From contig NZ_CP100000.1 of assembly GCF_024138165.1 (NCBI RefSeq), positions 3,596,001-3,660,000 on the forward strand: a stretch of 64,000 nucleotides of DNA, written 5' to 3'. Below the pieces are notes generated by a model. That model worked only from the letters and a program-made list of their open reading frames with translations, made no database searches and was not told the DNA's origin. Source of the stretch: Halorussus vallis. GTDB taxonomy: Archaea > Halobacteriota > Halobacteria > Halobacteriales > Haladaptataceae. Numbering within the stretch: position 1 is the stretch's first letter; each line of letters opens with the position of its first letter. The translations under genes and the position numbers were made by a program. This document shows, in pieces, positions 466 through 51,324 of this stretch.

Positions 466-503
466 CGCGAACGACCGCGACGGGACGAAAACGAGAGCCG
501 GTT

Positions 504-674: not shown

Positions 675-843
675 GGTATACCGGTACGTAGCGCCTCGAC
701 GAACATAAATCGCACTCAAACCGCCGCCGGAACTTTACGATAAATCGTTATACAATTACGGGTCAGGGGGACGATTGTTACCTAATAGCACGCGGTGGGG
801 CGAGGACGAAGGCTTTTCGCCGGGCGGCCCCAATCGCCGGAAA

Positions 844-1329
844 ATGAGCGACAGCGACACGCGAGACGGGGATCTCCCGGCGCTCCGGACGACCGCCGAC
901 TACCAGTTCGGCGCGGGCGTCGGGGCGGCGCTGTTCCCCGAGGGTGAACCGGTCGAAATCAAGCGGTCGTCTTCGGGACGACCCCAGCAGGTCGTCGCCG
1001 AGGAGGGTCGGCTGGTCACCTACGCCACCGATGGCCGGTTCACCCTCGGACTGGCCGGCGGCCGGCGCATCGTTGCCGCACTCGACGCGCCGGCGGGCCG
1101 GGTCGTCGTCGGCGACGAGAGCGAACCGTTCGTCCGCGACGGCAAGAACGTCTTCGCGAAGTTCGTCGCCGCGGCCGGTCCCGAGATTCGACCGGGCGAC
1201 GAGGTGGCGGTCGTCCACGAGGACGGCCGACTGCTGGGGGTCGGCCGGGCGGAACTCTCCGCCGACGCGATGGCCGACTTCGACACCGGCATGGCCGTGA
1301 TGGTCCGGGAAGGCGCGGGCGAGGCGTAG
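844..1329 (+). CDS. PUA-domain protein
   Basis: A 161-residue protein whose C-terminal half (about residues 75-155) reads as a PUA fold: it has the run of strands containing GDEVAVVHEDGRLLGVGRA typical of the RNA-binding module found in pseudouridine synthases and archaeosine tRNA-guanine transglycosylase. The N-terminal half resembles the pre-PUA region of archaeosine enzymes, and no catalytic domain is present. It probably binds RNA as a stand-alone adaptor in tRNA or rRNA modification. This is inference from fold only. Start ATG 844 was chosen; the longer frame upstream has unlike composition. Confidence 0.75.
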   Translation: MSDSDTRDGDLPALRTTADYQFGAGVGAALFPEGEPVEIKRSSSGRPQQVVAEEGRLVTYATDGRFTLGLAGGRRIVAALDAPAGRVVVGDESEPFVRDGKNVFAKFVAAAGPEIRPGDEVAVVHEDGRLLGVGRAELSADAMADFDTGMAVMVREGAGEA

Positions 1330-1394
1330 CGCTGACGAGGCGTAGTGTCGCAAGTTAGCGCGGGTAGGTCGTGGGACGGGTGGCCCAGCGACGG

Positions 1395-1997
1395 TCACCC
1401 CGTGGCGGTCGTTGTTCCGACCGAGAAGTTCGCCTCCTCGACCGTGACGCCGGCGGCCAGCCAGCCGCTCCGCCGGACGGCTCCGAGTTGGTCGCGGTAG
1501 GTGGCGTTCCCGGCGACGAGGTAGGTGCCGGGCAGCGTTGCGGCCTCGACGCCGACGCGGAGTTCGAACACCCGGCGTTCGCCCGGTCGAAGCCGGGGCA
1601 CGAAGACCCCGACGCGACCGTCCCGGTTCACCCCCGACCCGAAGAACAGCGTCGCGTTGTCGACCGTGAGCCACAGTCCGACGTCGAAGGCGGTTCCGCT
1701 CCCGACGTTCGTCAGCGCGAACCGGTAGACGACCGTCTCGCCGGGCAGCAAGGTCCGGTTCGAAACCGCGGTGAACGCGAGGACGGGAACTCCCTGCGCG
1801 CCGGCGGTTCGTTCGCCCACGGTCGAGAACCCGTCGTCGACAATCGCCGTCGGGCCGAGCGGCGTCGCGGGACCGCCGCTCGGCCCACCGGGACGGATTC
1901 CAGTTCCTGTGTCCGCGTTGGCCGCCGCAGCGACGAACCCGCCGAATGACGCGACCAGCACGACGGCGACGACGCCGACGGTAGCGAGCGGGCGCAT
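1395..1997 (-). CDS. Secreted or surface beta-sandwich protein (CARDB-like)
   Basis: 200 residues. Residues 1-25 form a Sec-type signal peptide (short basic N-terminus, long Val/Ala stretch). The remainder looks like a single immunoglobulin-like beta-sandwich of the kind in archaeal surface proteins, with motifs such as LLPGETVVYRFALTNVGSG and LRPGERRVFELRV. No C-terminal membrane anchor is visible, so it is either released or held by a partner. A TATA-like TTTCTATT on the minus strand (2021-2028) lies about 27 nt before the start. It converges with the PUA gene. Confidence 0.65.
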   Translation of the reverse strand: MRPLATVGVVAVVLVASFGGFVAAAANADTGTGIRPGGPSGGPATPLGPTAIVDDGFSTVGERTAGAQGVPVLAFTAVSNRTLLPGETVVYRFALTNVGSGTAFDVGLWLTVDNATLFFGSGVNRDGRVGVFVPRLRPGERRVFELRVGVEAATLPGTYLVAGNATYRDQLGAVRRSGWLAAGVTVEEANFSVGTTTATG

Positions 1998-2104
1998 ACC
2001 ACCCTTCCTAGCGGGCGAGGAATAGAAAACTACCGCCGAACCGCGTCGTCGCGTCGGTCGCGGCGACGTACCGCCGCGACCGCTCGTGACGGTCGTTCGC
2101 CACG

Positions 2105-2112
2105 CTTATTTT
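2105..2112 (+). promoter_or_regulatory. TATA-like box of the NAC-trmI unit
   Basis: CTTATTTT ends 23 nt before ATG 2135, the spacing expected for a leaderless haloarchaeal transcript. It supports 2135 rather than the in-frame ATG 24 nt upstream as the start of the NAC gene. Confidence 0.5.
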
Positions 2113-2134
2113 GACTGACTCCGACGCTTCGAGT

Positions 2135-2551
2135 ATGTTCGGAGGAGGCGGCGGGGGTCTGAATCCCCGTAAGATGAAGCAGATGATGAAGCAGATGGGC
2201 ATCGACGTCGACGAACTCGACGCCGAGCGGGTCGTCATCACCAAGAGCGACGGCGAGGAACTCGTCTTCGATGACCCCGAGATCACCGTCATGGACGCCC
2301 GCGGCCAGCAGACCTACCAGGTCGTCGGCGACCCCACGTCCCGCAAGTCGACCGCGGACGAGGACGGCACCTTGGCCGTCGAAGACGGCGAGTCCGGCGA
2401 CGCCGAGGAGTCGGCCGGCGGCGCGGGCGACATCCCCGACTCGGACGTCGAGATCGTCGCGCAGCGAACCGGCGCGAGCGAGGACGATGCCCGCGAGGCC
2501 CTCGAAGCCGCGGACGGCGACCTCGCCGCGGCGGTCGAGCGCCTAGAGTGA
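2135..2551 (+). CDS. nac: Nascent polypeptide-associated complex protein (archaeal NAC-alpha)
   Basis: 138 residues. A Gly-rich opening ([22 protein letters not shown]) leads into the NAC beta-barrel (about 25-70). A low-complexity acidic linker follows, then a C-terminal UBA domain (about 100-138, [19 protein letters not shown]). Archaeal NAC is a homodimer at the ribosome exit tunnel that contacts emerging chains. Its stop codon overlaps the GTG start of the next gene (GTGA), so NAC and TrmI are translationally coupled. Confidence 0.93.
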
Positions 2552-3288
2552 CGGTCCTGCTGGTCCACGGCGACCGGGAGTATCTGCGCGAACCGGGCGA
2601 GGAACTCCAGACCGACCTCGGCGTGCTGGAGGTCCCCGAGGACGTCTCGCACGGCGACACCCTGGAGACGCATCTGGGCGAACGGTTCGAGGTCCGACGC
2701 CTCCGCGGCCCGGACCTGTTCAACCACTTCGAGCGCACCGGCGCGCCGATGATGCCTCGCGACGTGGGCCTGGTCGTCGGCCACACCGGCGTCGGCGCGG
2801 GCGACCGAGTGCTCGACACCGGCACCGGGACCGGCGTGCTCGCGGCCTACCTCGGTCGGGTGGGCGCGAGCGTGACGACGTTCGAGCGCGACCCCGAGTT
2901 CGCCGACATCGCCCGCGAAAACATGGAACTGGCCGACGTGGCGGACCGCGTGGACGTGCGCACCGGCGACCTGACCGAGGAACTGGACGAGTCCGAGGGG
3001 ACCGACGAACTCGGCCGGTTCGACGTCCTGACCCTCGACACCGGCGACGCCGCCGAGGTTGTCGCGCGAGCGCCCGACCTGCTCGTGCCGGGCGGGTTCG
3101 TAGCCGTCTACTCGCCGTTCGTGGAGTCCTCGCGCGACGTCGTCGAGGCGGCCCGCGAGGCAGACCTTCAGAGCATCGAGACGCTCGAAACCATCCAGCG
3201 CCGGATGGACTTCGACGACCGCGGCTCTCGCCCGTCGACGGCGGGCGTGGGCCACACCGGCTACCTCACGTTCGCGCGCCGGCCCTGA
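2548..3288 (+). CDS. trmI: tRNA (adenine-N1)-methyltransferase TrmI
   Basis: 246 residues. A small N-terminal beta domain (1-60) is followed by a class I Rossmann methyltransferase. The SAM-binding loop is [16 protein letters not shown] near residue 91, and the conserved [10 protein letters not shown] precedes it as in archaeal TrmI, which methylates A57/A58 of tRNA from S-adenosylmethionine. The start is GTG 2548, overlapping the NAC stop by 4 nt. An imperfect inverted repeat follows at 3302-3342. Confidence 0.92.
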
Positions 3289-3301
3289 CTCGCGACTCAC
3301 T

Positions 3302-3342
3302 CGACTCGCCCGGTTCGTTCGCCGGACGAATCGGGCGAGTCG
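3302..3342. terminator. Inverted repeat after trmI
   Basis: Arms at 3302-3318 and 3326-3342 pair over 17 bp with one mismatch, around a 7-nt spacer. It sits 14 nt after the TrmI stop, so a role in transcript termination or 3'-end stability is plausible. There is no T-run. Confidence 0.5.
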
Positions 3343-3444
3343 CGTACGTCACGCGCCGCCTGTTCTCTGCGCTACGGCCCGTAGGAGCCCCATAACAAAG
3401 CCCGGAAGCGCCGTCTCCCCGCGTAGGACGCACTGAGAGAACGC

Positions 3445-4278
3445 ATGACCGATACGAACCTCCGAGTCGGACTCATCGTGCGCGGGTCGGACGTCCCGGC
3501 GTGGCAGGCCCGCACTATCGAACGGATGCTGGCTCGAACGGACGCCGAAGTAACGCACGTCGTCGCCAACGCCGCGACGAACGAGCAGGGCCTCGACCAC
3601 TACCTCGACCGGGCGCGGGAGAACCCCCTCTGGACGCCGGTCGGGGCGCTCTATCGCCTCCGGGGACCGCCGGCCCACCGACGCGGTCGGTCGCTCGACT
3701 CCATCGCGGGGCTTGGCGACCCGGAGGTCGTCCGGGTCGAACCCGAACCCGCGCCGGACTTCGGCAACGTCCTCCCCGAGGAGGGCGTCGAGGCACTGGC
3801 GGAGACCGACGTGGCGGTCCGGTTCGCGTTCGGCATCCTCAAAGGAGACGCGCTCGACGCGCCCGAACACGGCGTACTGAGCTTCCACCACGGCGACCTC
3901 CGGGAGTACCGCGGCCAGCCCTCCGGGTTCTGGGAGTACCTCCACGGCGACCCGACGGCGGGCGTGACCCTCCAGCGAATCAACGAGACGCTCGACGGCG
4001 GGGAGATCGTCGCCTTCGAGTCGGTGGACATCGCCGACGCCGCGACGTGGACCGAGGTGCGCGACCGCCTGTTCGTGGCCTCCGACGACCTGCTCGTGAA
4101 GGGCATCGAGAACGTCGCCCACGGAATCGACCCGCTGTCGCCCGACGAACTCGGCGACCTCTACAGCCTCCCCGAGGGTACGGACGTGCTGAAGTACGTG
4201 TTCAAGGAGTGCGTCGGCCGGATGCGCAAGTACGCCTCCGAGATTCAGGTCGGGAAGGCGCCCAAAGCGGTCGAGTGA
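3445..4278 (+). CDS. Formyltransferase-family protein (Fmt/PurN fold)
   Basis: 277 residues. The C-terminal part carries the formyltransferase active-site neighbourhood LSFHHGDLREYRG (145-157), followed about 25 residues later by ETLDGGEIV. In PurN/Fmt the catalytic trio is Asn-x-His and a downstream Asp. Here His148 and Asp184 are kept, but the Asn position is Ser146. The N-terminal domain is Rossmann-like. Archaeal initiation does not use formyl-Met, so a metabolic or sugar-modifying transfer is more likely than initiator-tRNA formylation. Substrate unknown. Confidence 0.75.
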   Translation: MTDTNLRVGLIVRGSDVPAWQARTIERMLARTDAEVTHVVANAATNEQGLDHYLDRARENPLWTPVGALYRLRGPPAHRRGRSLDSIAGLGDPEVVRVEPEPAPDFGNVLPEEGVEALAETDVAVRFAFGILKGDALDAPEHGVLSFHHGDLREYRGQPSGFWEYLHGDPTAGVTLQRINETLDGGEIVAFESVDIADAATWTEVRDRLFVASDDLLVKGIENVAHGIDPLSPDELGDLYSLPEGTDVLKYVFKECVGRMRKYASEIQVGKAPKAVE

Positions 4279-38642: not shown

Positions 38643-39539
38643 TTATCGCCCCTCGTTGCGATACGATTCGACCGCGGAACGGTAGCCTTCCCGATACGTC
38701 GGGTAGACGAACTCGTAATCCAGCGACCGGAGCTTCGCGTTCGAACACCGTTTGCTGGTCAGGAGTCGCCGCCTAGTGCGCTCGCCGAGGTCCTCTGCTT
38801 CGAGTCGCTCCTCGGTCGTCTGCTTGGCGGGGCGCTCGACGCCGCACTCGTCGGCGAGCCAGTCGGCGAACGTCCACTTCGAGACGGGTTCGTCGTCCAC
38901 GACCAGGACGACCTCGCCGCGCGCGAGGTCCTCCGAAAGGAGATGTCGTATCGCACCCGCGACGTCGTCACGGTGAATCATGTTCAAGTAGCCCTCGGTC
39001 ACCGGGCCTTCCAGGTACCGCTCCAGGCGGTTCCGGCCCGGCCCGTATATGCCGGCGAGTCGCGCGACGGTGCCGTCCATCCCCGCCTCGGCGGTTTCTT
39101 CGAGCGCGATTCGCTCGGCCGCCGCCAGCACCTCGGTCTTCTCGGTCGTCGGCGAAATCGGCGTCTCCTCATCGACCCAGTCGCCCCCGTGGTCGCCGTA
39201 GACGCCCGTGCTCCCCGTATAAACGAATCGCTCGGGCGGGTCGTCTCGGCCCCCGAAGTGGCGGATGGCGGTTCGAAGCCCCTCGACGTACACCTCGCGG
39301 GCGGCCGCGGCGTCGCGGCCGCCCGAACTCGCCGCGAACACCGCGGCGTCGACGTCCGGCACGGCCGAGAGCGCCTCGGCGTCGGTCACGTCGGCGCGAA
39401 CCCCCTCGAACCCGGCCGCTTCGACCTCCTCGACGCCGTCCTCCGAGCGCCGGACGCCGACCGCCCGATGGCCTGCGTCCGTCAACTGTCGGCCGAGTTC
39501 GAGTCCGACGTACCCACAACCCAGAATCGCCACGTCCAT
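38643..39539 (-). CDS. NAD(P)-dependent SDR epimerase-like protein
   Basis: 298 residues. Rossmann loop AILGCGYVGLELGRQL at 4-19, YTGSTGVYGDHGG, then GIYGPGRNRLER and a C-terminal domain that closes the pocket. It resembles YeeZ-type atypical extended SDRs; the YxxxK catalytic pair is replaced, so it may have no dehydrogenase activity. Substrate unknown. Ala-rich segment GGRDAAAARE contains a 12-bp inverted repeat (39298-39325). Confidence 0.78.
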   Translation of the reverse strand: MDVAILGCGYVGLELGRQLTDAGHRAVGVRRSEDGVEEVEAAGFEGVRADVTDAEALSAVPDVDAAVFAASSGGRDAAAAREVYVEGLRTAIRHFGGRDDPPERFVYTGSTGVYGDHGGDWVDEETPISPTTEKTEVLAAAERIALEETAEAGMDGTVARLAGIYGPGRNRLERYLEGPVTEGYLNMIHRDDVAGAIRHLLSEDLARGEVVLVVDDEPVSKWTFADWLADECGVERPAKQTTEERLEAEDLGERTRRRLLTSKRCSNAKLRSLDYEFVYPTYREGYRSAVESYRNEGR

Positions 39540-39703: not shown

Positions 39704-40132
39704 TTACCGGTCGTTCTGGCTCGCGATGAAGTGGTGGAGTCGGGCGAACTCCTTCAGGGACATCTCCATCCGGCCCTCTATCTTCTGTTGTATCTCCTTG
39801 GCATCCATGTCGTCCATCTCGGCGGCGATCTTGTCCACGTCGAGGACCGCGGTCGTCATCCCCATTAGCAGGTGGTCGCGGGTTTCCAGTTTGACGGCGT
39901 CGGCGTCGGGGGTATCGTCGTCGAGCGCCAGGATGGCGGCCGCCTCCGCGACGGTCACCCGCGGCGACTCGCCGTCGGCGAGCGCCGCGACCGTCTCGCG
40001 GTCGACGCCACTCGCGTCGGCCACTTCGTCGACGCCTTCGGCTGCGATAACGTCGGCGAGTTCCGCCTCGTAGTCGGCGCGAAGTTGCTCGGGCGACGTC
40101 TCCTCCGGGTCGTCTACCTCGTCGTAGAGCAT
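39704..40132 (-). CDS. DUF5791 family protein
   Basis: 142 residues, mostly helical and acidic (TSPEQLRADYEAELADVIAA, LKEFARLHHFIASQNDR at the end). It is the haloarchaeal DUF5791 family. An HTH-like middle (VDEVADASGVDRETVAALAD) could bind DNA. It follows the secretion cluster by 57 nt in the same direction, but the gap suggests a separate transcript. Function unknown. Confidence 0.75.
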   Translation of the reverse strand: MLYDEVDDPEETSPEQLRADYEAELADVIAAEGVDEVADASGVDRETVAALADGESPRVTVAEAAAILALDDDTPDADAVKLETRDHLLMGMTTAVLDVDKIAAEMDDMDAKEIQQKIEGRMEMSLKEFARLHHFIASQNDR

Positions 40133-40189: not shown

Positions 40190-43100
40190 TCACCGCCCGT
40201 TCGACCACCCCTTCGACCGCTCGTCGGCGTCGCCGTCGGTGTCGCCGACCCCCGACTTTCCCGGCGGGACGACCACGACGACGACGGTGCTGACGTCGAA
40301 CGAGACGGGTTCCGTCCGGCCGAGCGTCTCCGCCTCGCCGTCTGCGTCGACGTCGAGGCGAACACGCCCGGCCTCGCGGGTATAGGCGACCGACCCGTCG
40401 GGCGAGAGCGGCGACCCCCGCGGCGCGCGAACCGTGAACCGGGCGTACCGGCCCTCGACGCCGACGTGCCAGACGTTCGCCGTCGCGTACCAGTAGCCGG
40501 GAACCGGCGCGACCGGAAGCCCCGCCGGCACCTGCGACAGCACCTCGCCGAACCAGCGCTTGCGGGCGCGCTCGGTGGCGTTGGCGAGCGCGTCGCCGAG
40601 CACGCGCTTGGCCTCCTGTCGGGCGAGTGTCCGGGCCGCCTCGCTCGCGCGCCCGACCGCCGACTCCGGGGGTCCCCCGGCGCGCTCTCGCGCCCGTTCG
40701 AGCGCCGTCCGAACTTGTCCCCGAATCCGAGTTTGGGCGCGAGCATCTCCCCCGCTCCCGGACCCGGCGCGCAACTCCTCGGCCACCGCGTCGGCCGCCG
40801 ACCCGTTCGCCGCGGCCAGCGCCCGCGCGGCCGTGGTGTTCCACCGGCCGAACCCCGCCCGAACCGCCGCCTCGCGCTCGGCCCTGGTGACGTCGAGTCG
40901 CCGGTCGAGCCGACGGGCGAAGTCGGAGCGTACCCGCCGGAGTGACGACGCGAGCGCGGCCCGGAGCCTCGCGCGTCGCGCTCGGAGCGTCCGATTCGTC
41001 CGGTTGGCCAGCGCCCGGTTCGCTCCCCGAAGCGCCAGCGCGGCGGTCCGGAGGTCGGTCCGTCGGCTTCCGCGCGCACCGTCGAGCAGTCCGACGGCGG
41101 TGTCGGCGGCGTCGGCGTACGGCGCGGTGAAGACGTTCAGGTTCCGAGCGGCGAGCGGATACCGCGTCTCGCCTTCCGGAATCGCGGCGACCCGTTCGTG
41201 GCCGAGCGCGGTCAGCGTCAGGTACGGCGGCGCGCCGTCGACGCTGAGATTCGTCGGCGACCCGGGTCCGGCGGCGGCCATCGGCCGAGGCGCCGGCGTC
41301 TCGACCGAGCGCGTCGCGTCGGCGATGCGGCGCACGCGGTCGAGCGAGATTCCGGCGTTCGAGAGCGCGCGCCCGACGCCCGACTGGAGTCGAGTCGTTC
41401 GACCTGCTCGCGCCTCGAGTCGCTCGACCACCTCGTCGATGTACGCTCGGCGGGCGGCGACCCGCGCCCGGTCCGCGACGCCGTCGTACCTGGTCGGCGC
41501 GGCGACGAGCGACTCCCGGCGCTCGCGGAGTCGCTCGGCGAGGGCGGCGGCCGGGGTCGCCCGACCGGTGACCAGTCCCTCCCGCGACACCTCCACGGTG
41601 ACGTTCCGGACGCGCTCGCGGAGAGTTCGCAAGTCCTCGACGACCCACGCCCGGAGTTCGGCGGGCCGTCGTCCGGTCACGGTCACCGGACGGGTGTCGA
41701 GCGTCGCCCCGACCGCCCGTCGTGCAAGTCGGTCGTAGCCGCCCCGCCGGTCGACGAGTCGGTTGACCGCCTTCGCTCGAACGTCCCGGAAGTTGGGTCC
41801 GTCGAGCGCGCCGCCGGGTTCGTGGACGCGGGCTATCGGTCGCGGCGGAGCGCCGTCGACTTCACGGTGGTCGCCCGCGACGCCGACGCCGACGCGGTAC
41901 TCCTCGGTCCACCGCCGGATGGTCTGGCGCGTCTCGTTGCCCCGTCGCCACCGAACGACCAGGGCGAGACTCCGGACGACTCGACGGGTTTCGGCCGTCA
42001 ACCGATGCCACCCTGACGGCACTCCCGGTTCGAGGCCGGCGGACGCCTCGACGCGGACCGTCGTCTCGACGCGTTTCTCCGCGACGGTCCAGTTGTCGGG
42101 CGACCCGACGTCTGGCGGCCGAGGCGTCGGGCGCGGGTCCGACCGCACCGTCTCGACGGCGGCGGTGAGCCGAACGTCCGCGCCGTACGCGTTCCGGAGG
42201 ACGGCGTCGAGTCCGTCGGAGTTCCTTCCGCCGCCGACCAGCGCGGCGTACGCGCGTTCGGCGGTTCGGTTCACTCCGACCCGGAGCGACCGCGAGGGGT
42301 CGCGGGAGAGCCGCGAACGGGTTTCAGAGAGCGGCGGCGTCCGGCCGAACTTCTTCGCGGCGGTCAGCAGACGGTTCGTTCGGGCCGTCCCGCGCCGGGC
42401 GTGGACGGCCTCGACGAAGTCGGTCGCGGCCACGCGGGCGGTCGTCCAGCGGAGCGCCCGCCGACCGGCGGGGTCGCTCCGGCCGAACGCGATCCGCTGT
42501 TCGCGGAGTATCGCGCCGTTCGTCGCGAGTTCGACGTGGCGGTTCGCCACGACGTTCTCGATGGGCGCACCGCCGTACTGGGCGTAGCCCCGGGCCCACG
42601 CCACGGCGTAGAGGCGCGCGGTGAGTCGCCGGCCCAGACCGGGCGAGAGCGGGCCGCGATTCAGCCGGGATTCGAACCGCTCGACCCGGTCGTGGAGCGC
42701 CAGCGCGGGCGTCGCGACGACGAGTTCGGGCGTGAACGTCTCGTGCGCGGCGACTCGACCGCCGCGCTCGGCGACGACCGTGACGTCGTCGATCCGAACG
42801 CGCAGTCCGGATTCGCCGCGTCGGCCCGCACGCTCGACGTGCACGCGGCGCTTCGCGGCCCGGAGTGCGCTGGCGTTCGGCGTGGCCGGAAGCGACGCCG
42901 ACGCCTCGACGCCGGTACCGCCGCCACCGTCGGCGCCACTCCCGCCCCCAACCTGGACGGTCGAGGCGGCGAGCGCCGCGCGCGCCGCGAGGTAGATGCG
43001 GATTCGGAGGTAGTCGCGGAACGGGTTCGAGTCGTTCAGGACGCGCCCGACGGTCGTGTTCGCGGGAGTTGTCACGGGCGCGCGGGCGGCCCGCCGTCCC

Positions 43101-43294
43101 GCCCGCGCGACGGCGCCGCGGAGCGCGGTCTGGCTCGCGGCGGTCGCTCGGTCGACGGCCCGCTCGACCGACCGGTCGACGTCGGCCTCCGGAGCACTCG
43201 TCAACGTGGCGCTCAACGACGCGCTCGCGACCAGGAGCAGGACGCCGACCAGCGCGAACGGGACCCGCGCTCGCTCGTCGTCGGCCAGTTTCAC
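40190..43294 (-). CDS. Large TadE/G-like membrane-anchored protein of the secretion cluster (DUF7286-like)
   Basis: 1034 residues if started at GTG 43292-43294, which overlaps the previous stop by 4 nt (GTGA); a GTG 45 nt upstream would add 15 basic residues. The start reads MKLADDERARVPFALVGVLLL, a charged leader and then one helix, much like the DERGQ-type start of TadE/TadG. The rest is an extracellular, Arg/Ala/Asp-rich helical protein without cysteines or catalytic motifs. A C-terminal segment PPGKSGVGD... lies outside. I believe such proteins are filed as DUF7286; that number is from memory. Confidence 0.72.
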   Translation of the reverse strand: MKLADDERARVPFALVGVLLLVASASLSATLTSAPEADVDRSVERAVDRATAASQTALRGAVARAGRRAARAPVTTPANTTVGRVLNDSNPFRDYLRIRIYLAARAALAASTVQVGGGSGADGGGGTGVEASASLPATPNASALRAAKRRVHVERAGRRGESGLRVRIDDVTVVAERGGRVAAHETFTPELVVATPALALHDRVERFESRLNRGPLSPGLGRRLTARLYAVAWARGYAQYGGAPIENVVANRHVELATNGAILREQRIAFGRSDPAGRRALRWTTARVAATDFVEAVHARRGTARTNRLLTAAKKFGRTPPLSETRSRLSRDPSRSLRVGVNRTAERAYAALVGGGRNSDGLDAVLRNAYGADVRLTAAVETVRSDPRPTPRPPDVGSPDNWTVAEKRVETTVRVEASAGLEPGVPSGWHRLTAETRRVVRSLALVVRWRRGNETRQTIRRWTEEYRVGVGVAGDHREVDGAPPRPIARVHEPGGALDGPNFRDVRAKAVNRLVDRRGGYDRLARRAVGATLDTRPVTVTGRRPAELRAWVVEDLRTLRERVRNVTVEVSREGLVTGRATPAAALAERLRERRESLVAAPTRYDGVADRARVAARRAYIDEVVERLEARAGRTTRLQSGVGRALSNAGISLDRVRRIADATRSVETPAPRPMAAAGPGSPTNLSVDGAPPYLTLTALGHERVAAIPEGETRYPLAARNLNVFTAPYADAADTAVGLLDGARGSRRTDLRTAALALRGANRALANRTNRTLRARRARLRAALASSLRRVRSDFARRLDRRLDVTRAEREAAVRAGFGRWNTTAARALAAANGSAADAVAEELRAGSGSGGDARAQTRIRGQVRTALERARERAGGPPESAVGRASEAARTLARQEAKRVLGDALANATERARKRWFGEVLSQVPAGLPVAPVPGYWYATANVWHVGVEGRYARFTVRAPRGSPLSPDGSVAYTREAGRVRLDVDADGEAETLGRTEPVSFDVSTVVVVVVPPGKSGVGDTDGDADERSKGWSNGR

Positions 43295-44193
43295 GCCGAC
43301 CGACCTCCGGCCACGCTTTCGGTTCCTCGTGCCCGCCACGTCCTGACGGTGACGGTCACCCGGCCGACCGCGACCGCCCGCGCGGCCGCGGTCGGCGTCG
43401 CGAATCGGGCTTCGAGTCGCCGCTCGAAGTCGTGGGCCAGCGCCCGCCGGAGGTTTCGATTCGCCCGCGCTACGTCTCCGGCCGACAGCGCGCGCTCGAC
43501 GCTCGTGTCGGTCGCTTTCGCGATGCGGCGGTAGCGAGCGGCCAGCGGTTCCGCGACGGCGGGTTCGGCCCGGAGCGCGACCGCGGTCGTGTTCGCGGGG
43601 AACGCGCCGTCGACGACTGCCCCGGCGACGACCCGCGCCACGCCGCCGTACCCGTCTCGCCGGGCCGCGGCGCGCGCCGCGGCCCGGCGGCTCGGTAGTC
43701 CACTCGGGACTCGAATCACCGCGGCCCGAACGTCGGCGTCGGCCGGCGGTTTCGCGCCGGCCGTCACCCGCCCGCGGAGCGCCGACCCCCAGTACGGTTC
43801 CCAGCGGGCGACGACCTGCGCGCGCAGGTCATCGCGGCCGGTCGCGCCTCGAATCGCCGTTCGCCGGAGCGACGCCGCCACGGTCCGCGCGACGGCGCGA
43901 CGAAATCCGCCGCTGTGGGGGAACAGCCCGCGCTGGTGACCCTCGACGGTGGCGTTCGTCACGGCCGCGGTCGCGAGGAGTCCGGCGAGGGTGTCGTGGA
44001 CGGTTCGGGGCCGGCGCTCGTCGCCGAGGGCGTAGGTGACGTTCGCCGTGCTCGTCGCGACGACCCCCGCCGTCGTCTCCGCTGTGTCCCGGGACGGTTC
44101 GCGTTCGCTCGGCGCCCCGACCAGCGTGACGACGCTCGCGGTGACGAACAGCAGGCAGAGCGCCACGTCGAGAACGGTGCTCGTCGCTCTCAC
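43291..44193 (-). CDS. TadE-like membrane-anchored protein of the secretion cluster (DUF7284-like)
   Basis: 300 residues from GTG 44191-44193, overlapping the previous stop by 4 nt. It starts MRATSTVLDVALCLLFVTAS: Arg-Ala directly before one long helix, then an extracellular domain rich in Ala/Arg/Val with no cysteines after the helix. Its stop overlaps the next start. A perfect 32-bp palindrome (43658-43689) encodes the symmetric stretch RRAAARAAARR. Likely a pseudopilin-type or periplasm-like subunit; inference from position and N-terminus. Confidence 0.72.
   Translation of the reverse strand: MRATSTVLDVALCLLFVTASVVTLVGAPSEREPSRDTAETTAGVVATSTANVTYALGDERRPRTVHDTLAGLLATAAVTNATVEGHQRGLFPHSGGFRRAVARTVAASLRRTAIRGATGRDDLRAQVVARWEPYWGSALRGRVTAGAKPPADADVRAAVIRVPSGLPSRRAAARAAARRDGYGGVARVVAGAVVDGAFPANTTAVALRAEPAVAEPLAARYRRIAKATDTSVERALSAGDVARANRNLRRALAHDFERRLEARFATPTAAARAVAVGRVTVTVRTWRARGTESVAGGRSA
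43658..43689. repeat. Perfect 32-bp palindrome inside the secretion-cluster gene
   Basis: 16-bp arms with no spacer (43658-43673 / 43674-43689), made of CGC/GCC/GCG codons. It encodes a mirror-symmetric Arg/Ala stretch. Confidence 0.85.
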
Positions 44194-44597
44194 GTCCACA
44201 CCACCACCCGGAGCCGCCCCGGGCGAATCCGGCCGGGCGCGACCCGGACGCTCACCGTTCGGGCAGCAACGTCGGGCCGCGCCGATTCGTCGGCGCGGCC
44301 CGACGCCGCGACCGATTCCGGCGGCGACGGTCCCGCGTGCCACGCCCGTCCGCCGACCGCGAGCGTGAGGTTCGTCCGGTACCCGTCGGGCGCCGCGCGG
44401 AGTCCCGACGGCAGTCGACCCGGTCGAACGACCCCTGCGCGCTCGACCGCCGAGCGAACCCGCTCGGCGGTCGGCCCGGCGACGTTCCGGTCGGGGTTCG
44501 GGAGCGCGTCTGCAACGACGCCCGCGTAGGCGCTCAGCGCGACGCCGACCGCGAAGACGGCGACCAGCGCGGCGAGGGGTTCGACCTGCCCTCGCAT
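44190..44597 (-). CDS. Pilin/TadE-like small protein of the secretion cluster (DUF7285-like)
   Basis: 135 residues from ATG 44595-44597. It begins MRGQVEPLAALVAVFAVGVA: Arg-Gly, then Gln-Val-Glu-Pro and one long hydrophobic helix, very close to class III signal/TadE starts (RGQ-x-x-E). The outside part is short and Arg/Ala-rich. If processed after Gly3 it would be a true pseudopilin. A 12-bp palindrome (44597-44622) lies just before the start, and a 16-bp one (44270-44305) within the gene, in the linker GRADESARPD. The next gene overlaps by 4 nt. Confidence 0.7.
   Translation of the reverse strand: MRGQVEPLAALVAVFAVGVALSAYAGVVADALPNPDRNVAGPTAERVRSAVERAGVVRPGRLPSGLRAAPDGYRTNLTLAVGGRAWHAGPSPPESVAASGRADESARPDVAARTVSVRVAPGRIRPGRLRVVVWT
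44270..44305. repeat. 16-bp inverted repeat inside the pilin-like gene
   Basis: Arms 44270-44285 / 44290-44305, perfect, 4-nt centre TTCG. Falls in a low-constraint polar stretch of the protein. Confidence 0.8.
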
Positions 44598-44622
44598 TCG
44601 CGCCGCCGGTCGGCGGCGCGAA
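44597..44622. repeat. 12-bp inverted repeat at the start of the pilin-like gene
   Basis: Arms 44597-44608 / 44611-44622, 2-nt centre, spanning the region just before ATG 44597 on the leftward strand. As RNA it would fold at the ribosome-binding position of this start codon, so it may lower or time translation. Confidence 0.6.
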
Positions 44623-44628
44623 CGCGAC

Positions 44629-45060
44629 TCACCCGACCAGCGCGACATCGACTCCCTCCCACGAAACCCGCCGGACGGTCAATTCGTCGCCGCGCTCCCA
44701 CGTCCGCCACTCGGCCGGCGAGGCGAACGCCCGGTCCGGGGGCGTCCCCCGGAGCACGTTCCATAGGGGAGTTCCCGGCGCGGCAGGCGTCACCGGTCCG
44801 TAGGCGAACGTCGCGTGCGAAACCGCGCCGTCGCGCCGGAGGGCGACGCGCTCGGGACCGAGTTTCACCGCGTCGGCCGCGAGGGGGACCTTCCTGGTCG
44901 CGGCGTAGTCGCTGGCGGCCACGGAGTCGACCGCGTCGGCGGCGCTCGCGGCGTCGGGCGGCGGCGCGCTGGGGAGCGAGGCGGCGAGGCCGAATGCGAC
45001 CGTGCTCGCCAGGGCCACGCCGAGCCAGACGTACCACGCGTCGACGGGTGCGTCGAACAT
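44629..45060 (-). CDS. Membrane-anchored protein of the secretion cluster (DUF7283-like)
   Basis: 143 residues. It begins MFDAPVDAWYVWLGVALAST, one helix (about 10-30), then an outer domain with a beta-rich centre (VALRRDGAVSHATFAYGPVTPAAPGTPLW). It heads the third transcription unit of the cluster and has its own copy of the shared promoter module (45061-45094). No cysteines. A minor filament or assembly component by context. Confidence 0.7.
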   Translation of the reverse strand: MFDAPVDAWYVWLGVALASTVAFGLAASLPSAPPPDAASAADAVDSVAASDYAATRKVPLAADAVKLGPERVALRRDGAVSHATFAYGPVTPAAPGTPLWNVLRGTPPDRAFASPAEWRTWERGDELTVRRVSWEGVDVALVG

Positions 45061-45094
45061 GGCCCGGGTTGGTCCCGTTCTCAGACTTAAACCT
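45061..45094 (-). promoter_or_regulatory. Promoter module C of the secretion cluster
   Basis: 34 nt directly before ATG 45060. On the leftward strand it reads AGGTTTAAGTCTGAG..., with TATA-like TTTAAG 25-30 nt upstream of the start, then ACGGGACCA. It matches the modules at 48896-48929 and 50088-50121 at identical distance. Confidence 0.65.
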
Positions 45095-46922
45095 ACGTCA
45101 CCAGTCCGGCGGCGACGAACGCGGCGAGGTAGGTCGCGGCCGCCGAGAGCACGGCCAGTCCGACCCGGTAGCCGACCAGCGCGCGGTCGAGGCCGCGCTC
45201 CAGTCCGGTCGCCAGCGCGGTGAGCACCGCCGCCAGCAGGAGGACGTACGCGCCCACCGCGACGCCGAGGGCGGCGGTCGGAAGCGGATCGCCGAACGCC
45301 GGGGTCGTCCCGGCCGAGATCGTCGATTTCGCGGCCGTGCTATCCGCGAGCGCGACCGTCGCGCCGCCGACCAGCGGCGCGAAGACGGCGGCGGTGTTCC
45401 GGAGCGTGCCGGTCACCTGGGCCAACTCCCGGCGCGCCTCGCGCTCGACGCCCCGGAGGTCGTCGACGTGGTCGGCCATCGCCACCGCCGGCCGGCCGGC
45501 GGGTCGGCCCTCGCGCCCCGCCACCGCGAGGAGTTCGGCGACGCTCCGGGCCTGGGGGTTCGGCACGTCGGCGAGCGCACCGTGCTCGCCGAGGAAGGCG
45601 TCGCGAACCCCGACGCGGAGGCGGCGCTGGACGCCCGCGGCGTCGGCCAGCACCTCGCCGGTTTCGCCCGGGACCTCCGCGGCGGCGTCGGCCACGGCCG
45701 CCTCGACGGCGCGACCCTCTCCGACCCGACGGCCGACGAGGTAGAGCGCGTCGGTCAGGTTCTCCTCGACGGCGCGGGCGTGGTCGCGAATCTCCTTCAC
45801 CGGCCGGTACCACGCCGCGAGCGGGACGCCGACCGCCGCGGCCGCGGCGGTCGGCCAGCGCGTCCAGCCCGGCAGAACGGGTATCGCGGCGACCGCCGCG
45901 GCGGTCGCCGCGCCCGCGAGGAGTCCGCCGACGACCGCGAGCCACCGGCGCTCGGGGTCCGGCGCGTCGGGGTGCGAGGCGGGAACGTCGGGCGGCGGAA
46001 ACGCGGCCGGCCGACGGACCAGGAGCCACGCGCCCGCCCAGACGAGCGCGCCCGGGAGGACCACGTCGTAGACGGCGACGAGGACGGGGACGGAGACGGG
46101 GACCCCGGCGACCCGCGCCGCGGGGAGCACCGCCACGAGCGCCAGCGGAAGCAGCACGCCGAAGGCGTACAGCGCGGTCGTCGGTCCCCGGACGGAGTCC
46201 GCGAACTCGGCCATCCGGTCGCGGGTCCCCTCCGAGATGGCCGTCGTCGCCCGGTCGAGGGTCCGACCGCGCTCGCCGGGCGGTGCGTCGGCGGCCGCCT
46301 CCACGAGCAACGCGGCCCGCCGGAGCGGCGGATTCCACTCGGTCCACGCCTCGCCGAACGCCGCGAGTCCCGACTCGGGGGTTCCGTCCGCGCGCCGGAC
46401 GTGTTCGCCGAGGCTCGCCGCCAGCGGTCCGGCCCCCGAGCGGGCGGCGAACGCCGCCGCCCGCTCGCTCGTCGGTTCGATTCGCATCCGGAGGACTGCC
46501 CGCCCGACGAGGGCGGGGGCCGACCCAAGCGCGCTCGTTCGGCGCGCGGCGGCGATCGCGAGCGGTCCTCGCCGTCTAAGCAGGGCGATGCCGAGGCCGG
46601 CCGCGAGGCCGCTCGCGGCGACCATCGGTCGGAGAGGTGCGGGCGCAAGCGCCGCCAGCGCGAGTCCGAGGAGAGCGGTCAGGACCCCGCCCGCGTTCCC
46701 CGCCCGAACCACGGTTTCGGCGTCGAGGTCCGAATCGAGGAATGCGAGCGCCCGGTCGAGGTCGGCGAGAGCGCGCCCGGAGTCGGCGGTTCCGCCGACT
46801 CCGGGCGCGCTCTCGGTATTCCCTCCGACACCGAAGGCATCCGCATCCGGCCAGGTCTTCGCCAGCGCCGCGACGACGACTTCCCAGGTCGCGGTCGGTC
46901 GACTCGCGGGAGTTCGCTTCAC
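45093..46922 (-). CDS. tadC-like: TadC/GspF-like secretion platform with two T2SSF-type halves
   Basis: 609 residues, about twice the length of a bacterial TadC. Two blocks of hydrophobic helices (about 80-115, 245-300, 310-355 and 495-605) flank two cytosolic helical domains, the pattern of tandem T2SSF domains in archaeal type IV filament systems. A long cytosolic N-terminus (1-75) is low in complexity. GTG start overlaps the ATPase stop (GTGA), so ATPase and platform are made together. A 50-bp palindrome (46766-46815) lies within the N-terminal linker. Confidence 0.88.
   Translation of the reverse strand: MKRTPASRPTATWEVVVAALAKTWPDADAFGVGGNTESAPGVGGTADSGRALADLDRALAFLDSDLDAETVVRAGNAGGVLTALLGLALAALAPAPLRPMVAASGLAAGLGIALLRRRGPLAIAAARRTSALGSAPALVGRAVLRMRIEPTSERAAAFAARSGAGPLAASLGEHVRRADGTPESGLAAFGEAWTEWNPPLRRAALLVEAAADAPPGERGRTLDRATTAISEGTRDRMAEFADSVRGPTTALYAFGVLLPLALVAVLPAARVAGVPVSVPVLVAVYDVVLPGALVWAGAWLLVRRPAAFPPPDVPASHPDAPDPERRWLAVVGGLLAGAATAAAVAAIPVLPGWTRWPTAAAAAVGVPLAAWYRPVKEIRDHARAVEENLTDALYLVGRRVGEGRAVEAAVADAAAEVPGETGEVLADAAGVQRRLRVGVRDAFLGEHGALADVPNPQARSVAELLAVAGREGRPAGRPAVAMADHVDDLRGVEREARRELAQVTGTLRNTAAVFAPLVGGATVALADSTAAKSTISAGTTPAFGDPLPTAALGVAVGAYVLLLAAVLTALATGLERGLDRALVGYRVGLAVLSAAATYLAAFVAAGLVT
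46766..46815. repeat. 50-bp palindrome inside the TadC-like gene
   Basis: Perfect 24-bp arms (46766-46789 / 46792-46815) with a 2-nt centre TT. It encodes SAPGVGGTADSGRAL in the variable N-terminal linker, next to another GVGGNTES, so the protein also carries a short internal repeat. It is the longest perfect palindrome I found in the window. Confidence 0.9.
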
Positions 46923-48895
46923 GCGCGCTCCCCTCGCACGTCCTCGCCCCGCACGTCCTCTCCTCGGGTTGCGTAGGCGGCGGTCACGTCGGCCGCGCTC
47001 GTCCGTCCCTCCTCCGCGAGCGTTCCGAGGAGCGTGGCCCGGTCGGCAAGCGCGCGGCGAACGTCGGCGTAGGTTTCACCGCTCCGCGCCAGCGAGGCGA
47101 CGAGCGCACTGTTCCCGCGGTCGATACGGCCCGTGGCTTCGAGGTCGCCGTCTCGTCGTTCGAACAGTGCTTCGAACCGGTCCGGGCCGACGACCTCCTC
47201 GACGGCCTTCACGCGACGGCGACGACCGGCAGGCGTTCGATGCGGTTCGAGCGTGACCACGAGGTCGGTCGCGGCGAACGACGATTCGGGGACGCCGAGG
47301 TCGGAGACGACGCGCTCGCGAATCGCCTCGGACCTGTCGCCGTGGATTGTGCCGAGGACGGCGCTTCCGCTCGCGCCGACTCGCATCGCCTCGTAGAGGA
47401 CCGCGGCCTCCGCGCCCCGGACCTCCCCGACGACCAGCGCGCCCTCGCCGAGACGGAGTGCGGTCCTGAGCGCCGCGACCGGCGCGAGGCCGGGTCCGGT
47501 CGCCGCGTCGTCGCCCTCGTCGCCGCCCGCGCTGGCGCTCGTCCGGAGCGGTTGGACGTCCCGGCCCCGGCGCTGGAGTACCGCGACCGGGAGTTCGGGG
47601 GTGTCTTCGATGACGACGGTCCGCGTCGCGGCGGGCAGTTCCCAGAGGAGCGCCCCCAGGAGCGTCGTCTTGCCGGCGCCCCGAGTGCCGGCGACGAGTC
47701 CGGCGACCGCGCGCTCGACCGCCACCGAGAGGAAGGCGGCCGCCTCGGCCGTGAGCGTCCCGTTCTCGACGAGCGCGGGCAGGGTCAGCGCCGCGGCGTC
47801 GTGGGCGCGGAAGGCGAACCCCGGTCCGTCGCTGACGGGCGCGGTGACGCCCGCGACCCGGACGGTTCCCGTTCCCGTTCGACCGTCTCCACTGTCCGCC
47901 GCGACGCCCGCGTCGACTTCGGCGGTCGCGTCGAGCGTGGGCGAGGCGCGCGAGAAAGCCCGCCCGCTGGCGCGCCGGAGCCGAGACGCGAGCGTCTCGG
48001 CCCCGGATTCGGTGAGCCTCACGTTAGTGCGCATCCGCTCGCCGTCGACGGAAACCCGGAGGACGTTCTGGCCGACCGGTGCGGTGGCGAACACGTCGGA
48101 AACCGTGGGGTCGGCGAAGCAGTCGGTCAGGACGCCGTAGCCGCGGGTGTGCTTGCGGAGCGCGGCGGCGAGCGTCTCGACGGGGTCGTCGGGGCCGGCG
48201 ACTCGCCGAACCGCCCGTCCCGGCGCGCGCTCTCCGCCCGCGACCGCGCCGTCGGCGAGGAGTTCGTAGGCGCGGGACAGCGTGGCGAGGTCGGCGGCGG
48301 AGAGCGCGTACTCGGCCGGTTCGAGGTGGTAGGTCCGGAGCGACATCTCGGGGTCGTCGTAGATGCGGACGGTCGCACCGGTCGAGAGGGTCCGTTCGGC
48401 GTCGAGCGTCGCGCCCCGCGGCGGACGGGCGGCCACTCGCGCCCGGGCGACTCGCGGGCCGACGAACGCCCGGAGCGCCTCGCCGTAGTCCCCGAACCGG
48501 CGCGCGCCTTCCGCGAGTCCGGTTTCGGCCGCGACGTCGGCGACGGGCCCCGCGCGCCCTCCCGCCGCGCGGCCGGCCGCGAGCGGGTCGGTCCGGGCGC
48601 AGTCGGCGAGGTAGGCGTCGTAGAACGCGGCGCGCTCGACGAACCGGCCGGCCGCGACGAGTATCGCCGCCGCGTCGTCTTCGTACGCGCGCTCGACGCC
48701 CGCGGTTCGGGTCACGACCAACTCGGCGTCGCGGTCGGCCAGCGCCTCGACGGCGGTCGCCCGGCAGTTCGGGTCGGCGGCGAGATCGCCGCCGCCCAGG
48801 CAGTCCTCCGCGTCGACGACGAGTCGGTCGCCCTCGAACGTCGGCGCGCACGCGCAGGCCCGGTCGTCGTCCCGGAACCGAGACAGTAGGTCCAT
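46919..48895 (-). CDS. tadA-like: TadA/GspE-like secretion ATPase
   Basis: 658 residues. The motor domain has Walker A GTRGAGKTT (403-411), Asp box VVIEDTPEL (428-434), Walker B GALVVGEVRG (485-494) and a His box GTIHGD with His518. The N-terminal third holds a Cys-rich patch (Cys14, Cys16, Cys32, Cys44), an unusual possible metal site. The C-terminus ends in a twice-repeated GEDVR. It should energise filament assembly or secretion through the TadC-like platform. Confidence 0.93.
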   Translation of the reverse strand: MDLLSRFRDDDRACACAPTFEGDRLVVDAEDCLGGGDLAADPNCRATAVEALADRDAELVVTRTAGVERAYEDDAAAILVAAGRFVERAAFYDAYLADCARTDPLAAGRAAGGRAGPVADVAAETGLAEGARRFGDYGEALRAFVGPRVARARVAARPPRGATLDAERTLSTGATVRIYDDPEMSLRTYHLEPAEYALSAADLATLSRAYELLADGAVAGGERAPGRAVRRVAGPDDPVETLAAALRKHTRGYGVLTDCFADPTVSDVFATAPVGQNVLRVSVDGERMRTNVRLTESGAETLASRLRRASGRAFSRASPTLDATAEVDAGVAADSGDGRTGTGTVRVAGVTAPVSDGPGFAFRAHDAAALTLPALVENGTLTAEAAAFLSVAVERAVAGLVAGTRGAGKTTLLGALLWELPAATRTVVIEDTPELPVAVLQRRGRDVQPLRTSASAGGDEGDDAATGPGLAPVAALRTALRLGEGALVVGEVRGAEAAVLYEAMRVGASGSAVLGTIHGDRSEAIRERVVSDLGVPESSFAATDLVVTLEPHRTPAGRRRRVKAVEEVVGPDRFEALFERRDGDLEATGRIDRGNSALVASLARSGETYADVRRALADRATLLGTLAEEGRTSAADVTAAYATRGEDVRGEDVRGERA

Positions 48896-48929
48896 GCCCC
48901 GCCGTGGCCCCGTCTTCGGACTTAAACCT
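48896..48929 (-). promoter_or_regulatory. Promoter module B of the secretion cluster
   Basis: 34 nt directly before ATG 48895. On the leftward strand it reads AGGTTTAAGTCCGAAGACGG then GGCCA. TATA-like TTTAAG is 25-30 nt upstream of the start. Same module as at 50088-50121 and 45061-45094, so ATPase plus platform form an independent unit. Confidence 0.65.
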
Positions 48930-49461
48930 CCGGACCGGGTCCGCGTTCGTCGCGCGCCGTCGAGACGACGACGGTCGGTCGCCCGCGATACCGCACGAGT
49001 CGGAGCGTCAGTCCGTGGGTTCCGCCGCGTCGGACCAGCGCCCGGCGGTCCCGGAGCACGCGCCCGTCCCGAACGAGTCGGAGGTCCACCCCGACGCGAC
49101 GGACACACCACTCGCCGCCCGCGAGTCGGTAGGCGAGCACGTCGGAACGCTCGGTGTCGGCCGCGCGCGTTCGGTTCTCGGGTCGCCTCGTTGTCGGAAC
49201 CCCGCCGACCGCAATCGCGGCGACCTCGGCGCGAGTCGGTGCGGAATCGGGCACCGAGAGCGCCACCGCTCGACGCGCGCTCGCGCTGCCGACGGGGACT
49301 GGGTCCTCCTCGCGGGCGAGTTCCTCGGCCGCCGACCCGACCGCCCAAAGTTCGTCCGCGGCGACCCGGTCGGCCCGGGCGGTTCGCGCGGCGTCGAGCG
49401 CGGGCGCGGTGACCGCCAACATCGCCGCCGCGAGGACGACGGCGAGTACCGCGCGCAGCAC
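48922..49461 (-). CDS. Membrane-anchored protein of the secretion cluster (DUF7311-like)
   Basis: 179 residues from GTG 49459-49461, whose G overlaps the previous TAG (TAGTG). One helix (about 4-24, AVLAVVLAAAMLAVTAPAL) precedes an outer domain with strands (WCVRRVGVDLRLVRDGRVLR, LTLRLVRYRGRPTVVV). It has a single cysteine near the centre. I recall similar proteins as DUF7311 next to TadA-like genes; the number is unverified. Confidence 0.7.
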   Translation of the reverse strand: MLRAVLAVVLAAAMLAVTAPALDAARTARADRVAADELWAVGSAAEELAREEDPVPVGSASARRAVALSVPDSAPTRAEVAAIAVGGVPTTRRPENRTRAADTERSDVLAYRLAGGEWCVRRVGVDLRLVRDGRVLRDRRALVRRGGTHGLTLRLVRYRGRPTVVVSTARDERGPGPEV

Positions 49462-50087
49462 TACTCCGTCTCCGTGATTCCCGGCGCCCGGGCCTCCGTC
49501 GCGCTGCCGGACACCCTCGTGCCGCCGATTCCGACGAGCGCCGCCAAGCGTGTGAGGACGCCGAGGTCGTTCGCGGCGTCCGCGTCGTCACTTCGCGGGT
49601 CTTCGGTGCCAAAGGTGCGTTCGGCGTCTCGAACCGGGCGACCGCCGGTATCGACGGATTCGGGAGTCGCGACGCCGGCGGGTCGCCGTCGGTCGCAGTC
49701 ACAGTCGGGCGACGGGTCCGTCGTACCGCCGTGTTCCCCGTCGCGTCCGTACGTCCCGTCGGCAGTCTCGGTCGTCGTTTCGCCCGCCGTCTCGGCCGTC
49801 GCTTCGACGGCCGTCCTGGCCGACTCGGCGGCCGCCAGCGCGGCGTCGGCCCGGCGCTCGACGGCCTCGTTGACGGCCCGGACGTTCCCGACGTAGCCCC
49901 GGAGCGCCTGGGTCGCGGTGTCGAGGTCGTCGGCACGTCGTTCGAGCGCTGCGAGGCGGTCGGCCAACTCGTCGAGGTCGTCGGCTACCGCGGCGGCACC
50001 CTGCAGGTCGGTCAGGTCGCGGTCGGCGTCGGTCAGCGCGCGTTCGACCGCGCGGAGTCGCTCGTCCAGCGTTTCGAGGTCTGTCAC
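49461..50087 (-). CDS. Coiled-coil protein heading the secretion cluster (DUF7310-like)
   Basis: 208 residues. A long N-terminal coiled coil (about 3-100, LETLDERLRAVERALTDADR...) is followed by an acidic disordered region with PSPDCDCDRRRPAG (CxC) and a C-terminal small domain that may sit at the membrane (LGVLTRLAALVGIGG). GTG start preceded by promoter module A. It is probably a cytosolic scaffold or regulator of the machine. I recall it as DUF7310, unverified. Confidence 0.7.
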   Translation of the reverse strand: MTDLETLDERLRAVERALTDADRDLTDLQGAAAVADDLDELADRLAALERRADDLDTATQALRGYVGNVRAVNEAVERRADAALAAAESARTAVEATAETAGETTTETADGTYGRDGEHGGTTDPSPDCDCDRRRPAGVATPESVDTGGRPVRDAERTFGTEDPRSDDADAANDLGVLTRLAALVGIGGTRVSGSATEARAPGITETE

Positions 50088-50121
50088 GCCGCGACCTGGC
50101 CTCGCCTTCGGATTTAAGGCT
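50088..50121 (-). promoter_or_regulatory. Promoter module A of the secretion cluster
   Basis: 34 nt before GTG 50087. On the leftward strand it reads AGCCTTAAATCCGAAGGCG then AGGCCA. TATA-like CTTAAA 25-30 nt from the start. It is the first of three copies; the divergent CetZ gene starts 157 nt away. Confidence 0.65.
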
Positions 50122-50244: not shown

Positions 50245-51324
50245 ATGAAAGTCGTCCTGATTGGCGTCGGTCAGGCTGGGGGAAAACTCACCCAGCAACT
50301 GGCCGAGTACGACCAGCGAATGGGTTTCGGCGCCGTCCAAGGCGCGCTCGCGGTGAACTCCGCGAAGGCCGACCTGCAATCGCTCGACCTCGACACGGTG
50401 CTCGTCGGCCAAGACCGCGTCAACGGCCACGGCGTCGGCGGTGACAACGAACTCGGCGCGGAAGTGATGCAGAGCGACGCGACCGAAGTGATGGACGCCC
50501 TCGACGGCCGAATCACCGCGCAGGCCGAGGCCATCTTCGTGGTCGCCGGCCTCGGCGGCGGCACCGGGTCGGGCGGCGCGCCCGTCCTCGCGCGCGAACT
50601 CAACCGCGTCTACCGGATTCCCGTCTACGGCCTCGGCGTCCTCCCCGGCCGGGGCGAAGGGTCGATGTACCAGGTCAACGCGGGCCGCTCGCTCAAGACG
50701 CTCGTCCGGGAAGCCGACGCGACCCTCCTCATCGACAACGACGCGTGGCACACCTCCGGCGAGAGCGTCGGCGAGGCGTTCGACAAGATCAACCAGAACA
50801 TCGCCCAACGGGTCGGCCTGCTGTTCGCTTCCGGCGAGGCGGTCGAGGGCGTCGGCGAGAGCGTCGTCGACTCCAGCGAGGTCATCAACACCCTCCGGTC
50901 GGGCGGCATCGCAACGCTCGGGTTCGCCAGCGCCGAGGCCAGCGAGGACGCCGAGGAGAACATCAACACCGTCACCTCCACCACCCGCCGCGCCCTCCTC
51001 AGCAACCTCAGCCTGCCGAACGCCATCGACGCCGACTCGGGGCTACTCGTGGTCGCCGGCAAACCCGACGCGATTCCCCGGAAGGGCGTCGAGCGCGCCC
51101 GCAAGTGGATGGAGGAGGAGACCGGCAGCCTCCAGGTCCGGGGCGGGGACTTCCCGCTCGACAGCGAGCGACTCGCCACCCTCATCGTGCTCGGCGGCGT
51201 CGAACGCTCCCAGCGCGTCGAGGACTTCATCGAGCGCGCCAAGCAGGCGAGCAAGGAGGCCGAGCAGGAACGTCAGGACCCCGCGGAGATGTTCCATAAC
51301 GACCAGATCGACGACCTGATATAG
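50245..51324 (+). CDS. cetZ: CetZ-type tubulin/FtsZ-superfamily GTPase
   Basis: 359 residues starting MKVVLIGVGQAGGKL. The GTPase signature is GGGTGSG at 104-110; N-terminal GQAGGK and the NSAKADL loop are typical of archaeal CetZ rather than FtsZ1/2. The C-terminal end is charged and helical (EQERQDPAEMFHNDQI). CetZs shape haloarchaeal cells and affect motility and surface-structure placement. A TATA-like GATTATC (50217-50223) is 22-28 nt before ATG 50245. It is divergent from the secretion cluster. Confidence 0.92.
   Translation: MKVVLIGVGQAGGKLTQQLAEYDQRMGFGAVQGALAVNSAKADLQSLDLDTVLVGQDRVNGHGVGGDNELGAEVMQSDATEVMDALDGRITAQAEAIFVVAGLGGGTGSGGAPVLARELNRVYRIPVYGLGVLPGRGEGSMYQVNAGRSLKTLVREADATLLIDNDAWHTSGESVGEAFDKINQNIAQRVGLLFASGEAVEGVGESVVDSSEVINTLRSGGIATLGFASAEASEDAEENINTVTSTTRRALLSNLSLPNAIDADSGLLVVAGKPDAIPRKGVERARKWMEEETGSLQVRGGDFPLDSERLATLIVLGGVERSQRVEDFIERAKQASKEAEQERQDPAEMFHNDQIDDLI

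Follow-up and report, generated by a model that had tools for sequence, protein, structure and literature searches.

A pil-2 (PilB2/PilC2) type IV filament locus in Halorussus vallis and the co-inheritance of its six partner families

The closest described relatives of the locus considered here are the pil-2 genes of Halobacterium salinarum (OE1347R-OE1332R) and pilB2/C2 of Haloferax volcanii. In H. salinarum three prepilins are predicted by FlaFind, the pilB2 transcript is 8.5-fold up in adherent cells, and blastn detected the locus in haloarchaea only (PMC4292770). Makarova et al. (2016) describe their subclade 4F as having an ATPase whose N-terminal domain is rich in cysteines, together with a coiled-coil component and, in Halobacteria, a neighbor resembling FtsZ (PMC4858521). 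The pilB2/C2 regulon adjoins cetZ2, and an epimerase gene and one further conserved gene also lie there (Brown and Duggin, PMC9856176). Here we analyze a 64,000-nucleotide (nt) stretch of the Halorussus vallis genome (the window), in which open reading frame analysis shows positions 40190-50087 to be occupied by eight successive minus-strand genes (g1-g8). This cluster is the haloarchaeal pil-2 (PilB2/PilC2) type IV filament locus, which has already been described, and is another member of a known system. It shares with pil-2 of H. salinarum and H. volcanii the order of ATPase, platform, and partners, the coiled coil, the N-terminal cysteines of the ATPase, and the CetZ2 and epimerase neighbors. 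There is no substantive difference, except that the window genes are intact, whereas in H. salinarum an in-frame stop lies in pilC2, and pilB2 of NRC-1 is interrupted (PMC4292770). Judged by its sequence features the locus fits subclade 4F, as opposed to the subclade 4C in which one paper places H. volcanii PilB2 (PMC6491452). The locus is described yet little explored: of the papers searched, only three name the ATPase arCOG or locus, and none names the six domain of unknown function (DUF) families of its partners. New here are the co-inheritance of the whole set, a split in methanogens in which the partner order is kept, a three-unit promoter pattern, and the conservation in haloarchaea of a four-cysteine N-terminus on the ATPase. 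The eight genes are:

g1, 49461..50087, minus strand: coiled-coil protein, DUF7310 (PF23991, 4e-29), no transmembrane segment
g2, 48922..49461, minus strand: DUF7311 (PF23993, 1e-32), one N-terminal transmembrane helix and an outer domain
g3, 46919..48895, minus strand: PilB2-type assembly ATPase (T2SSE/VirB11 family; PF00437, 5e-15) with an N-terminal four-cysteine motif
g4, 45093..46922, minus strand: PilC2 platform protein, TadC-like, about 8 transmembrane segments, 609 amino acids, named by position and literature
g5, 44629..45060, minus strand: DUF7283 (PF23954, 4e-45), one N-terminal transmembrane helix
g6, 44190..44648, minus strand: DUF7285 (PF23956, 1e-35), prepilin-like N-terminus R(G/A)Q-x-EP and a transmembrane helix
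g7, 43291..44193, minus strand: DUF7284 (PF23955, 4e-78), prepilin-like N-terminus
g8, 40190..43294, minus strand: DUF7286 (PF23957, E = 0, 1174 bits), about 1035 amino acids, single-pass, prepilin-like N-terminus R(A/G)R(V/I)PFA

An earlier, preliminary description of the window had noted eight tightly packed leftward genes, and this is confirmed. The genes overlap by 1 nt (g1/g2, TAGTG), 4 nt (g3/g4, GTGA), and 20 nt (g5/g6), with gaps of 26 nt between g2 and g3 and 32 nt between g4 and g5; g6/g7 and g7/g8 also overlap by 4 nt (GTGA) if g7 is started at its later GTG, 44193 (versus 44199), and g8 likewise at 43294 (versus 43339); both of these starts agree better with relatives. The ATPase gene starts at the ATG at 48895. 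The G+C content of g1-g8 is 0.82-0.90 at third and 0.57-0.66 at second codon positions, and in every gene compared with the nearest Halorussus relatives the third codon positions diverge more than the first and second, as expected under constraint at the protein level. Because seven of the eight genes match Pfam families, g4 being the exception, and dozens of genomes carry homologues of all eight in unchanged order, the cluster is not a product of chance. The preliminary description had also placed the partners outside known families. This does not hold, as they match DUF7310, DUF7311, DUF7283, DUF7285, DUF7284, and DUF7286 far above cut-off, and the locus itself has been published as pil-2 (PMC4292770, PMC4858521, PMC9856176). 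The arCOG numbers given here for window genes are inferred from gene order and description; on that basis g1 (DUF7310) is probably arCOG07564, to which the coiled-coil component of subclade 4F loci belongs.

Linkage was assessed in 116 genomes of the class Halobacteria, 85 of which carry the ATPase. All 85 also encode DUF7310, DUF7311, DUF7283, DUF7285, and DUF7286, and 84 of them DUF7284, while partner families occur in only five genomes that have no ATPase. The earlier expectation that the eight genes stay together across Halobacteria is borne out, the ATPase being linked to its partners rather than separated from them in most relatives: at 77 of 86 ATPase loci all six partners lie within 12 kb, and 75 of the 86 keep the gene order of the window. 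The nine unclustered loci comprise two contig breaks, one locus (G010) with no detectable DUF7284, and six rearrangements, in all of which the partner families persist elsewhere in the genome (e.g. G033, G046, and G069). On these co-occurrence counts, a reading of the partners as unrelated bystanders was discarded. Of 345 genomes in the phylum, 87 contain both the ATPase and DUF7286, 3 the ATPase alone, 5 DUF7286 alone, and 250 neither. These counts are phylogenetically non-independent; the stronger evidence comes from the losses within Halobacteria. This near-perfect co-inheritance makes the six orphan families candidate subunits of one machine, and a filament locus of the Tad/VirB11 type with conserved partners, as first proposed, is supported. 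One genome (G058; L028/L029) has two full copies of the cluster.

The product of g3 is a VirB11/TadA-type assembly ATPase. In a search of solved structures its relatives were 2oap, CpaF, and FlaI, with GspE/CpaF/FlaI closest, and it scores under every NCBIfam equivalog cut-off, including those for TadA (TIGR03819; 114 bits, cut-off 373) and FlaI (73 bits, cut-off 550). Four cysteines (CxC, C, CR) lie within its first 60 residues and are kept in all 31 of the haloarchaeal relatives examined (among L006-L040 and L062-L074); a cysteine-rich N-terminus is also found on the methanogen ATPase orthologues, and the four-cysteine N-terminus is likely to bind metal. The putative platform protein g4 has about eight transmembrane segments, and its gene adjoins that of the ATPase in relatives. 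The preliminary description had singled out a double-length platform, and one long TadC-like gene is indeed present; it is not an oddity, since the long form is the usual one and is split only in bacterial Tad (PMC10191384). An internal duplication of g4 was considered and rejected (3% probability, in register, not significant), and the g4 profile gave no match to the multi-transmembrane open reading frames that adjoin other ATPases in that genome. Compared with the bacterial Tad/Flp system (T4cP), in which the ATPase TadA/CpaF resembles that of the window, the locus has a single platform gene in place of separate TadB and TadC, and contains neither a Flp pilin nor a TadE/F/G family match. The archaellum likewise has a related ATPase (FlaI, 4ii7), but g3 falls far under the FlaI cut-off and no archaellum-specific family is matched in the cluster.

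The proteins g2, g5, g6, g7, and g8 each have exactly one transmembrane segment, near the N-terminus, and g1 has none, in keeping with the earlier account of one coiled-coil partner and others with one N-terminal helix and an outer domain. That account had seen no pilin-like protein, which was too strong. In 30 of the 31 DUF7285 sequences an R/K-G/A pair precedes Q, T, V, or F, DUF7286 has R/E-G/A-R/H/W-V/I/L-PFA in 28 of 30, and DUF7284 has R-A/G-x-S in 24 of 31. We take these motifs to resemble archaeal prepilin cleavage sites, and the N-termini of DUF7285, DUF7284, and DUF7286 are accordingly described as prepilin-like, with cleavage predicted. The prepilin peptidase once thought missing is encoded elsewhere in the genome as a single Peptidase_A24 protein (G000:C1:2249691), and the secretin that was also not seen would not be expected in an archaeon. 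A relation of the partners to TadE/F/G, which it had been suggested to check by profile and fold, did not emerge: the profiles assign the partners to Pfam DUFs, no partner matches TadE/F/G in Pfam or NCBIfam, and no solved fold matches g6 or g8, so that the earlier view of the substrate as undescribed is still fair. Profiles of DUF7286, DUF7284, DUF7285, DUF7283, and DUF7311 gave no convincing match to solved structures, and no pairwise homology was detected among DUF7285, DUF7283, DUF7311, and DUF7284. A weak profile match of DUF7284 residues 184-286 to ribosomal uL16 (E = 4e-4) is likely compositional and was set aside, as were the top fold-search matches of the DUF7285 and DUF7286 models, to ribosomal proteins (E 0.05) and to unrelated small proteins, SecB among them (E of at least 0.14), with all TM-scores below 0.4. 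The length of DUF7284 varies, as noted in L006, L007, L010, L016, L021, and L022, being about 150-190 amino acids in some genomes and about 280-300 in others, including the window.

Relatives of DUF7286 are also present in methanogens, including Methanosarcina acetivorans, which served as a named control. In L042, L043, and L048 (one family) and L047 (another), single-pass genes occupy the positions of DUF7311, DUF7283, DUF7285, and DUF7284 before DUF7286. Comparison of the methanogen counterparts with hhalign gave 94.8% for DUF7311, 97.3% for DUF7285, and 97.5% for DUF7284, against less than 1% for two mismatched control comparisons; the DUF7283 counterpart reached 5.7% and is assigned by position only. 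The methanogen subclade-4F systems share two things with the window: an ATPase-TadC pair that is orthologous (38-46% identity) and has N-terminal cysteines, and, in the loci that were read, an unchanged order of DUF7311/7285/7284/7286. They differ in that the motor pair and the partner set are at separate sites: the ATPase adjoins a TadC-like gene in most loci read, and lies 20 kb to 1.9 Mb from the partner set where one contig holds both. This split shows which genes constitute the motor and which the partner set. Beside the partner set of L042, an opposite-strand run of short single-pass genes (383-4049), one of them matching DUF7287, is probably another pilin operon. A small gene with a signal peptide-like start follows DUF7286 in methanogens (L042 11870-12484, L048 12110-12706, and L044 6924-7541), and no counterpart of it was seen in Halobacteria.

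Taken together, these data make it likely that the cluster serves type IV filament assembly, as a locus of archaeal subclade 4F, and that PilB2/PilC2 builds the single-pass proteins into a short filament or a tip complex. The prepilin peptidase would trim some of these proteins, and PilB2, acting via PilC2, would lift them from the membrane into a short filament, or into the tip (minor-pilin) complex of a filament with its major pilin encoded elsewhere. The giant DUF7286 protein could be the distal or anchoring subunit, DUF7310 with its coiled coil may regulate the motor, CetZ2 may position the machine, and the role to be expected is surface attachment or contact. Several points weigh against this reading. 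The R(A/G) site is missing from DUF7284 in 7 of 31 sequences, and no such site is seen in DUF7311 or DUF7283. The models of DUF7285 (predicted local distance difference test, pLDDT, 81) and DUF7286 (pLDDT 64, low confidence) have no fold match in the PDB at E<=0.001, leaving the pilin fold putative, and the platform protein g4 has no family match in Pfam or PDB searches. To our knowledge a pil-2 filament has never been seen, and the deletion that removes pili in H. salinarum is reportedly that of pilB1 (pil-1). A more specific proposal, which we put forward only tentatively, is that DUF7311, DUF7283, DUF7285, DUF7284, and DUF7286 make up an archaeal equivalent of the GspHIJK/PilHIJK tip complex, lacking any recognizable sequence similarity to it, and prime subclade-4F filaments across Halobacteriota, the approximately 1000-amino acid DUF7286 being a giant tip subunit; in haloarchaea this complex would have become joined to its motor beside CetZ2, which would position the machine.

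The missing cleavage sites in DUF7311 and DUF7283 and the lack of a pilin fold match for DUF7285 and DUF7286, together with the large helical DUF7286 ectodomain predicted by its low-confidence model, would suit a fixed envelope scaffold on which the motor docks, comparable to TadG or to the FlaF/FlaG stator of the archaellum, with the five single-pass proteins not extruded. The prepilin-like motifs conserved in DUF7285 and DUF7286 speak against such a scaffold, and we regard it as unlikely. A type II-like secretion machine is possible but doubtful; in it the single-pass proteins would build a short pseudopilus, by which a soluble or surface protein is driven through the S-layer, and long filaments would not form. 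The locus has no obvious major pilin, its ATPase is related to GspE and TadA, and its five single-pass proteins, the largest encoded last, are reminiscent of a set of pseudopilins in their number and their ordering by size; however, no conserved cargo gene adjoins the cluster in Halobacteria, and archaeal major pilins are often encoded elsewhere (PMC4858521). That the motor pair and an unrelated membrane complex are two independent systems lying side by side could be argued from the distance between the gene sets in methanogens and from a second copy of the partner set, the g5-g8 block, with no ATPase in G077 (L055). Because presence and absence are nearly perfectly matched, including the losses within Halobacteria, this is disfavored and appears very improbable.

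TATA-like elements precede three of the genes in the window:

TATA-like element, 50113..50117, minus strand: about 30 nt before g1
TATA-like element, 48922..48926, minus strand: about 31 nt before g3, overlapping the g2 stop
TATA-like element, 45087..45091, minus strand: about 31 nt before g5, beside the g4 stop

Across the loci compared, a TTTAA-like element occurs, mostly about 30 nt upstream, at g1 in 12/31, g3 in 17/32, and g5 in 27/33 (shuffled expectation 1.2-1.8), and is essentially absent upstream of g2, g4, g6, g7, and g8. This pattern suggests three putative transcription units. In the Halorussus locus L006, g1-g2, g3-g4, and g5-g8 have changed places as whole blocks but stay within one neighborhood, and in L010, also from Halorussus, g3-g4 and g5-g8 are rearranged as units, g1-g2 not being seen within L010. 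In H. salinarum the seven open reading frames from pilB2 onward are co-transcribed (PMC4292770). A scan for bacterial-type promoters and terminators gave no match, as expected for an archaeon.

The genes flanking the cluster are:

CetZ2 tubulin-like protein, 50245..51324, plus strand: divergent neighbor (PF21011/PF00091), 525 bits to 4b45 (CetZ2) versus 336 to 4b46 (CetZ1)
DUF5791 protein, 39704..40132, minus strand: PF19104, 4e-49, downstream in most relatives, probably arCOG04674
NAD-dependent epimerase, 38643..39539, minus strand: PF01370, conserved downstream, probably arCOG03095

A DHH protein and a phosphodiesterase are further neighbors in the window, and the set agrees with the published pilB2/C2 neighborhood (PMC9856176). 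A concrete list of partners is now available for testing the role of CetZ2. In L053 (G045) and L059-L061 (G067, G012, and G056), residual partner genes with no ATPase are flanked by cetZ, DUF5791, and the epimerase, and these are apparently decaying loci.

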